Shown: positions 48,367 to 51,220 of the stretch, in pieces | Numbering within the stretch: position 1 is the first letter of the stretch | Layout of the letters: each line of letters opens with the position of its first letter | Assembly: GCA_020629545.1 (NCBI GenBank) | Contig: JAHDDC010000008.1 | Span: 18,592 to 82,591 of the forward strand | DNA from: Hellea sp. | GTDB taxonomy: Bacteria; Pseudomonadota; Alphaproteobacteria; Caulobacterales; Maricaulaceae | DNA: 64,000 bases | Reading direction: 5' to 3' | Translations under genes and position numbers: made by a program | The notes under the pieces: model-generated | The model's input: only the letters and a program-made list of their open reading frames with translations | The model's database searches: none | Told to the model about the DNA's origin: nothing

Positions 48367-48900
48367 ATGGATATGTCAAAAATTCCTGCCGGTAAAAACC
48401 CGCCGAAAGACATCAATGTTATCATTGAAGTTCCGCTGGGTGGTGAACCTATCAAATATGAATTGGACAAAGCCTCCGGGGCCATGTTTGTTGATCGCTT
48501 TTTATATACGGCGATGCGCTATCCCTGTAATTACGGCTTTATTCCGCACACGCTTTCCAATGATGGCGACCCAACCGACGTTATGGTCTATGGCAATCGA
48601 GCACTCATGCCAGGCGCTGTTGTACGGGCACGTCCGATCGGCGTTCTCATGATGGAAGATGAAGCCGGGGTGGATGAAAAAATTCTCGCCGTGCCTCACC
48701 AAAAGTTATCACAATTCTACAATAAGGTCGAATCCTATAAAGATATGCCGGAGATCCTGTTAGAACGGATTTCTCATTTCTTTGATCATTACAAAGACCT
48801 TGAGGCAAATAAATGGGTTAAAGTTCTGGGATGGGAAGACCGGGAAAAAGCCGAAGCGCTTATTCTTGAAGGCATTAAGGCCGCCCAAAACCAAGGCTAA
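48367..48900 (+). CDS. ppa: Inorganic pyrophosphatase
   Basis: VIIEVPLGGEPIKYELDKASGAMFVDRFLYTAMRYPCNYGFIPHTLSNDGDPTDVMV. Confidence 0.97.
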   Translation: MDMSKIPAGKNPPKDINVIIEVPLGGEPIKYELDKASGAMFVDRFLYTAMRYPCNYGFIPHTLSNDGDPTDVMVYGNRALMPGAVVRARPIGVLMMEDEAGVDEKILAVPHQKLSQFYNKVESYKDMPEILLERISHFFDHYKDLEANKWVKVLGWEDREKAEALILEGIKAAQNQG

Positions 48901-48974
48901 TACGAAAGTTCTTTTAGCCGCCAAAAATCATTCACTTTTCTGATTGATTAGATTCACCCTTGATTCCCGCGTCA

Positions 48975-49111
48975 ATGGCGCTAATTTGCCTGCCATAACG
49001 CGAGGGGAAGCGTATTTGGGGAAATACGGCCAATCTCACTGATCGCGAGGGGAAGCGTGTGATCAGCACGGCCAACTTCACTACATTCAACTGACACGAC
49101 GTCATCGTGTC
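48975..49111 (+). ncRNA. Candidate structured leader RNA (tandem repeated motif) upstream of hppA
   Basis: Two near-copies 49000-49040 and 49045-49082: gcgaggggaag[hairpin]ggccaa(t/c)(c/t)tcact, with hairpins of differing sequence (cgtattt-gggg-aaatacg; cgtgt-gatca-gcacg); followed by 7-bp hairpin gacacga-cgtca-tcgtgtc (49093-49111) just before the SD. Confidence 0.65.
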
Positions 49112-49132
49112 TTTCTATTGAGGAGAGAATTA

Positions 49133-51220
49133 GTGGCTCTTTATCTAATTATACTAGCCGGTGTACTGGCAGTCATTTACGGGTTTGTGACCCGAGCGAA
49201 GCTTATGAAAGCATCGACCGGAAATGAGCGCATGAATGAAATCGCCGGCGCCATTCAAGAAGGGGCGAAAGCCTATCTCAACAAACAATATAGAACCATC
49301 GCGATTGTCGGTGTGTTCGTAACTATCCTGCTATTCGTTCTATTCAGAAACGCGATTGCACCTGTTGGTTTCGTCATCGGTGCGGTCCTGTCAGGACTTG
49401 CCGGCTATATCGGCATGCTGGTCTCTGTGCAGGCGAATGTGCGTACGACCGAAGCCTCTCGCAAAAGCCTCGGCGACGGCCTAAAAATCGCATTTGATGC
49501 CGGCGCTATTACGGGAATGTTGGTTGCAGGACTCGCATTATTGGGCCTATCAGTTTATTACATGCTTCTCACCGGCCCGATGGGCGCGGATGAGCGCGGC
49601 GTCATTGACGGATTAGTATCCTTATCTCTTGGCGCATCCCTAATCTCAGTATTTGCCCGTCTTGGCGGCGGTATCTTTACCAAAGGCGCTGACGTCGGTG
49701 GTGACCTCGTTGGTAAAGTCGAGGCCGGTATCCCGGAAGATGATCCAAGAAATCCGGCGACAATTGCCGATAATGTCGGTGATAATGTCGGTGATTGTGC
49801 CGGTATGGCCGCTGACCTTTTCGAAACCTATGTTGTGACAATTGCTGCGACCATGGTTTTGGGGTCTATCCTTTACGGCACTGTCGGTTCGCTAGCGCTT
49901 TATCCTATGGCGATTGCCGCAGTTTGTATCGTGACCTCAATTATTGGAACGTTTTTCGTTCGCCTGGGCAAAGGCTCAACCAATGTTATGGGCGCTCTTT
50001 ATAAAGGCCTTATTGCGACTGGCGTATTTTCGGCCCTCGCGATTTTCGTCGTCACACGTCAAATGCTTGGCTTTGGTGAAATCGGCGGAACCGAATTTTC
50101 GGGTATGGACTTATTTATCTGCTCATTGATTGGTCTTATCATTACAGGCGCAATCGTTGTTATCACTGAATATTATACAGGCGTAAAATTCCGCCCGGTT
50201 AAATCCGTCGCAGCCGCGTCTGAATCCGGTCACGGAACAAACGTTATTCAAGGCCTTGCAGTTTCGATGGAAGCAACAGCTGTTCCAGTCCTGATCATCG
50301 TATTTGGTATTATCTCTACTTACTCGATGGCCGGACTTTACGGAATTGCGATCGCAGTTACAGCCATGCTTGGCGTTGCCGGGATGATTGTCGCTCTTGA
50401 TGCATTTGGTCCCGTAACGGATAACGCCGGCGGTATTGCCGAAATGTCAGAACTCGATCCGGAAGTTCGCAATACAACTGATGCCCTTGACGCCGTCGGT
50501 AACACGACAAAAGCCGTTACCAAAGGTTACGCGATTGGCTCAGCCGGACTAGGTGCTCTCGTTCTGTTTGCCGCTTACTATAAGGACATTGAGTACTTCT
50601 CGGCCAAGGATGGCAATGCCTTGTCAGGCATGGTTGCTGATTTCTCATTGACTAATCCCTATGTGATCGTCGGTCTATTTGTCGGTGGTTTATTGCCTTA
50701 CCTGTTCGGCGCATGGGCCATGCAATCTGTTGGACGTGCCGCAGGGTCAATCGTTGAAGAAGTTCGCCGTCAGTTTAAAGCTGATCCGGGGATTATGAAA
50801 GGCACATCACGTCCTGACTATGCCAAAGCGGTCGATCTTTTGACCGGCGCGGCGATCAAGGAAATGATCAAGCCATCACTTCTGCCAATTCTGGCTCCTA
50901 TCGCGCTGTTCTTTGCTGTACGCGCAATGGCCGGCATGGAAAATGCTCTCGCGGCCCTCGGTGCGATGTTGATGGGCGTGATCGTAACCGGTTTGTTCGT
51001 AGCTCTTTCTATGACTGCGGGCGGCGGCGCTTGGGACAATGCCAAGAAATATATCGAAGATGGCAACCATGGCGGCAAGGGCTCAGAAGCCCATAAAGCG
51101 TCGGTTACCGGCGATACTGTCGGAGATCCCTACAAGGACACAGCCGGCCCAGCTGTTAACCCGATGATTAAAATTACAAATATCATCGCGCTTCTCATGC
51201 TGGCAATCCTGGCCCACTAA
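49133..51220 (+). CDS. hppA: Membrane-bound proton-translocating pyrophosphatase (GTG start, SD aggaga)
   Basis: [78 protein letters not shown]. Confidence 0.97.

Follow-up and report, generated by a model that had tools for sequence, protein, structure and literature searches.

The window, a stretch of 64,000 nucleotides of DNA from Hellea sp., carries on its forward strand the gene for a membrane-bound proton-pumping pyrophosphatase, hppA, at 49133-51220. Its assignment rests on matches to NF001951 (1117 bits) and TIGR01104 (860 bits), both of which exceed the cut-off, and its start codon is the GTG at 49133, which agrees in frame with the listed open reading frame. A Shine-Dalgarno (SD) sequence, GAGGAGAG, can be read at 49120-49127. 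A soluble inorganic pyrophosphatase gene (ppa, 48367-48900) directly precedes hppA on the same strand, and three other hppA leaders in the collection described below (L005, L010, and L015) likewise come after a gene with a similar end sequence.

Between ppa and hppA lie two consecutive near-copies of a motif, at 49000-49040 (copy 1) and 49045-49083 (copy 2). The first-pass annotation had described tandem near-copies in the hppA leader, and they were recovered at these positions with a conservation far above chance. Judged by that conservation and by the covariation of its helices, the pair is a real structured RNA that was previously uncatalogued.

Anatomy and distribution of the tandem element

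Each copy follows the plan GCGAGGGGAAGCG-[hairpin of 11-50 nt]-CGGCCAA-CUUC, in which the core, GCGAGGGGAAGCG-[hairpin]-CGGCCAACUUC, hardly varies among leaders. In the window, the 5' strand GCGAGGGGAAGCG occupies 49000-49012 and 49045-49057, and CGGCCAA lies at 49027-49033 in copy 1 and at 49069-49075 in copy 2. The strands of the outer stem, P1, are GAGG (49002-49005) and UCUC (49034-49037) in copy 1 and GAGG (49047-49050) and CUUC (49076-49079) in copy 2. Within these, the core of copy 1 comprises 49006-49012 and 49027-49033 around an apical hairpin at 49013-49026, and that of copy 2 comprises 49051-49057 and 49069-49075 around an apical hairpin at 49058-49068; the two apical hairpins differ in sequence and both are paired. 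A covariance model (R1), trained on 44 copies that include both of those in the window, finds only these two places in the 64 kb, with 52.8 bits for copy 1 and 52.5 bits for copy 2, and the full pattern likewise occurs twice in the 3.59-Mb genome from which the window derives, both times here.

The tandem is present in 43 distinct hppA leaders, all from the Robiginitomaculaceae (Hellea, Litorimonas, Algimonas, and Robiginitomaculum), including those of the cultured type strains Hellea balneolensis, Robiginitomaculum antarcticum, Litorimonas cladophorae, and Algimonas arctica, and hppA is the sole gene found behind it. A pattern scan of one genome per species, covering 85,462 species, returned 41 stretches, 40 of which are the element; 39 of these lie directly upstream of hppA, and the contig of the remaining one (L070) stops before the gene. 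The 41st stretch, from an Actinomycetota bin (L063) and without hppA, was set aside as a chance match. Relatives were also fetched by HppA protein search, independently of the motif, and all 17 with at least 80% identity and with the leader on the contig carry it, 16 of them with two canonical copies and one (L017) with a degenerate copy 1. The expectation that orthologous hppA leaders would carry the motif is thus borne out among close relatives, while more distant hppA genes in this family and order, at identities up to about 77%, are without the motif. In 299 genomes of the order, the model gave strong matches in 18, always exactly two and with scores of 38-59 bits, and all remaining matches fell below 23 bits. 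Samples of other alphaproteobacteria (385 genomes) and of the phylum (399 genomes) yielded only matches of about 25 bits, in G351 and G803, none of them with hppA. Both loci examined in G351 overlap open reading frames and are therefore read as chance, as are six matches on viral contigs, again without hppA. In a tree of HppA proteins, the 38 carriers used fall on one side of a branch with 100/99 support, a topology that fits a single origin of the element. One metagenome bin (CALDTL01), probably mixed, contributes two different motif-bearing leaders, L055 and L069, and the hppA of L055 is divergent (75% identity, on a long branch).

Within the motif, 17 columns are invariant, in part because the search pattern required them; the protein-based set of 17 leaders is free of this bias. 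The apical hairpin varies in both sequence and length between species and yet keeps its pairing: 93.9% of its cells are paired, whereas shuffles give 84.1% and shifted registers 35-48%. The earlier reading of conserved flanks enclosing compensatory stem changes is upheld by the number of doubly changed cells, which is 71 where shuffles give 21.8 (0/500). All members come from one family, however, so that the substitutions behind such counts are not independent of one another and the statistics ignore kinship. An independent swap test agrees. P1 is usually GAGG/CUUC, with GAAG/CUUC, GGAG/CUUC, GGGG/CUCC, and GAGG/UCUC also found, and its covariation alone is modest because the stem is short and often contains G-U pairs; the frequency of these pairs on the sense strand argues for a function as RNA rather than DNA. 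The GG/CC pairing within the core is invariant and so gives no covariation signal either way. The leader domain is, in sum, structured and conserved, with helices that covary, as is expected of a riboswitch. Among 42 leaders, the apical loops (49018-49021 in copy 1 of the window, for example) are enriched in the SD-like sequences GGGAG and GGGGA, found respectively in 12 and 10 leaders in copy 1 (1.8 and 1.7 expected) and in 9 and 8 leaders in copy 2 (1.4 and 1.5 expected); these sequences might pair with CUUC in competition with the SD.

The predicted 5' end of the transcript and alternative pairing at the SD and start codon

The position of the element relative to the promoter bears on which of the neighboring structures belong to the mRNA. 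TTGA, or TTGC in four leaders, stands 37-42 nt before copy 1 in 42 of the 43 leaders, the exception being L017, whose degenerate copy 1 was not counted. In the window, this corresponds to a promoter-like -35 element, TTGATT, at 48960-48965, which is followed after 16 nt by a possible -10 element, TAATTT, at 48982-48987; a generic sigma-70 scan did not score this pair. The near-fixed distance suggests that the transcript begins within about 10 bases of copy 1, with a predicted start at about 48994-48999, so that the tandem probably lies at the very 5' end of the mRNA. The promoter signal upstream of the motif makes a transcription start downstream of 49082 unlikely. It also tells against the inclusion in the leader of a further hairpin, annotated at 48975-48996, because this sits between TTGATT and copy 1 and would be promoter DNA that is probably not transcribed.

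On the other side of the tandem, the hairpin at 49093-49111, between the copy-2 tail and the SD, had been proposed as the site of an expression platform. The hairpin exists, and most leaders have one at the equivalent place, but the evidence favors a platform in which the SD or start codon competes for the copy-2 tail. In L070 and L076 only a 6-nt loop is found there, so that the hairpin looks like a spacer between tail and SD. Neither is there a conserved intrinsic terminator before hppA: only two of the 43 leaders, that of the window and L068, have a terminator-like site downstream of copy 2, and transcription attenuation was rejected as the platform.

The strand on which this competition would turn is the copy-2 tail, CUUCACUA at 49076-49083, a proposed anti-SD or anti-start strand whose complementarity covaries between species. 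Seven of its eight positions are complementary to UAUUGAGG at 49116-49123, and UCACUA (49078-49083) can alternatively pair with UAGUGG (49131-49136), which spans the GTG start. Copy 2 thus has a 3' strand (CUUCAUAA-type) that can take as its partner either its own GAGG or the SD (UUAUGGGG-type), and in most leaders tails such as CUUCAUAA, CUUCAUU, CUUCAG, and CUUCAUG are complementary to the SD regions UUAUGGGG, AAUGAGG, CUGAGG, and CAUGGGG; in leaders of the Litorimonas group, it is the start codon (UGUUAUG) that this strand matches. Complementarity of the tail to the SD or start region scores 14.5, compared with 12.8 when tails are swapped between species (0/5000) and 9.2 with shuffled regions. 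When anchored on the SD, the leaders show 16 distinct tail/SD combinations with doubly changed pairs, and only one or two of 500 shuffles equal them on paired fraction and covariation score. CUUC is found in the copy-2 tail of all 43 leaders and varies in copy 1, a contrast that would follow from a need of the copy-2 strand to fit both of its partners. When the leaders are folded without ligand, 69% have the tail on the SD or start region with P>0.5, a share that is 15% among shuffled controls, and copy-2 P1 is mostly open. Computationally, then, the leader has what defines an expression platform, namely mutually exclusive pairing placed to control an SD, start codon, or terminator.

About five leaders (L018, L073, L075, L077, and L085) are without a clear tail-SD helix. 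Three of these, the related L073, L075, and L085, have the SD in a local hairpin of the type ACUCU-AAGG-AGAGAGU, which is perhaps another platform. In the Algimonas-type leaders L070 and L076, tail and SD form a hairpin around the 6-nt loop (CUUCAG-AACCAA-CUGAGG), and in L076 the SD is some 30 nt before the AUG with a second, GC-rich hairpin between them.

A candidate translational switch and its alternatives

Conservation, covariation, and alternative pairing of the leader are established from the sequences, and the reading that we consider somewhat the better bet is that the tandem is a candidate translational ON switch, formed by two aptamers at the 5' end of the hppA mRNA. The two internal-loop hairpins of about 40 nt would be paired sensor domains, each built from the short outer stem P1 (GAGG/CUUC), a core in which GGAAG stands opposite CGGCCAA, and an apical hairpin that is free to evolve. 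In the absence of an effector, the 3' strand of copy 2 would quit P1 and pair with the SD or start codon, lowering translation, a step to which both the covariation and the folding point. From this arrangement we infer the direction of the switch: an effector bound to the conserved cores would hold copy-2 P1 closed and capture the anti-SD strand, so that hppA is translated. The tandem probably steepens the response, and the effector would most likely be a small molecule or ion tied to pyrophosphate (PPi) or energy metabolism. The folding model prefers the unconstrained best fold over that with both copies closed by 1-13 kcal/mol, which means that the ON state must be stabilized, by a ligand, a protein, or tertiary contacts for example, and that in some leaders the effector would pay a large cost. 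A 'domino' pairing of the copy-1 tail with the GAGG of copy 2 is possible in sequence but has a low folding probability in nearly all leaders, and the leaders with CUCC (L008 and L062) are better explained by copy-1 P1; it was put aside and remains an idea.

As the chief alternative, the same switch could be worked by a protein, if a dedicated RNA-binding protein on the tandem hairpins closed P1 or blocked the SD. Hairpins of about 40 nt that are repeated, have an internal loop, and vary at the tip would suit a protein too, as would the invariant core, and a regulator devoted to this leader would fit its being the only target in one family; however, no candidate protein is known, and the commonest protein of this kind, CsrA, is missing, PF02599 being found in none of 15 carrier genomes and in all three control genomes. 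A CsrA-regulated leader is thereby excluded, and a protein effector in general is unlikely, though it deserves to be kept in view. A constitutive role, in which ligand-free 5' elements stabilize the mRNA or offer SD-like GAGGGGA standby sites, is quite improbable: the hairpins do lie at the predicted 5' end, GAGGGGA does resemble an SD, and the apical loops are enriched as described, but the invariant 3' core CGGCCAA, the strict occurrence of two copies, and the covariation between tail and SD would all go unexplained.

Two further explanations are very improbable. Variable hairpins flanked by conserved strands could reflect pairing of those strands with a trans-acting small RNA, but the stems covary, and in nine genomes the 13-mer GCGAGGGGAAGCG, on either strand, occurs only in hppA leaders and CGGCCAACTTCA nearly so, from which it follows that no fully complementary small RNA is encoded in the nine genomes checked. 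The inverted repeats, being just downstream of promoter-like sequence, might equally be taken for a DNA operator bound by a transcription factor, a notion at odds both with the use of sense-strand G-U pairs by P1 and the tail-SD helix, which would be meaningless in DNA, and with a spacing within copies that ranges from 11 to 50 nt.

As to what a tandem-aptamer switch might sense, PPi would be an obvious guess for the effector, given that ppa precedes hppA in the window. The specific proposal of a candidate riboswitch class in which two cooperating aptamers of the internal-loop type sense PPi (or Mg-PPi) directly and so turn hppA on is nevertheless speculative and, in our estimate, distinctly unlikely; were it true, the leader would turn on a pump that spends PPi to energize the membrane. 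Whatever the ligand, it would reveal what cells keep track of while PPi is being spent to pump protons. The element is a strong orphan riboswitch candidate, in that its tandem core is strictly conserved, it has a single target gene, and the predicted switch is explicit enough to be tested by point mutations; its biochemical probing is straightforward given a sensor region of about 90 nt and its presence in cultured type strains.

Comparison with known RNAs

At the gathering cut-off, Rfam identified one tRNA in the whole window, and its 4227 families (Rfam 15) gave only unrelated noise in this region at E<=10 and only noise in 15 related leaders at E<=5. No hppA riboswitch or RNA-level control of membrane pyrophosphatases was found in the literature covered, which included surveys that looked for structured RNAs across 26 and 50 bacterial genomes and whose main text names neither hppA nor pyrophosphatase. 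The first-pass annotation had found in the tandem the look of aptamers and pointed to ion-responsive classes. The tandem, aptamer-like structure and its covariation stand, whereas the proposed location of the platform does not. The classes named, the fluoride (crcB), Na+ (DUF1646), and Li+ (nhaA) riboswitches, are also leader RNAs tied to ion physiology, and some fluoride riboswitches precede pyrophosphatase genes, but the lack of an Rfam match to the element leaves all three unsupported. The NAD+-I (nadA) riboswitch differs both in this respect and in its gene context.

Closer likenesses are found among RNAs that use small or repeated aptamers, although the element matches none of them in Rfam. 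The tandem glycine riboswitch also places two homologous aptamers before one expression platform (PMC9481103); the hppA element is far smaller and has another sequence and architecture. In guanidine-II (mini-ykkC), which is similarly small, two near-identical tandem hairpins act as one sensor, and conserved tetranucleotides in the apical loops dock with each other (PMC9481103). No conserved apical tetranucleotide is shared by the two hairpins of the hppA leader, where the apical regions are variable (11-50 nt) and it is the internal loop that is conserved. By analogy, the element may work in the manner of the small tandem-aptamer riboswitches, with its conservation in the internal loop and not in the apical loop.
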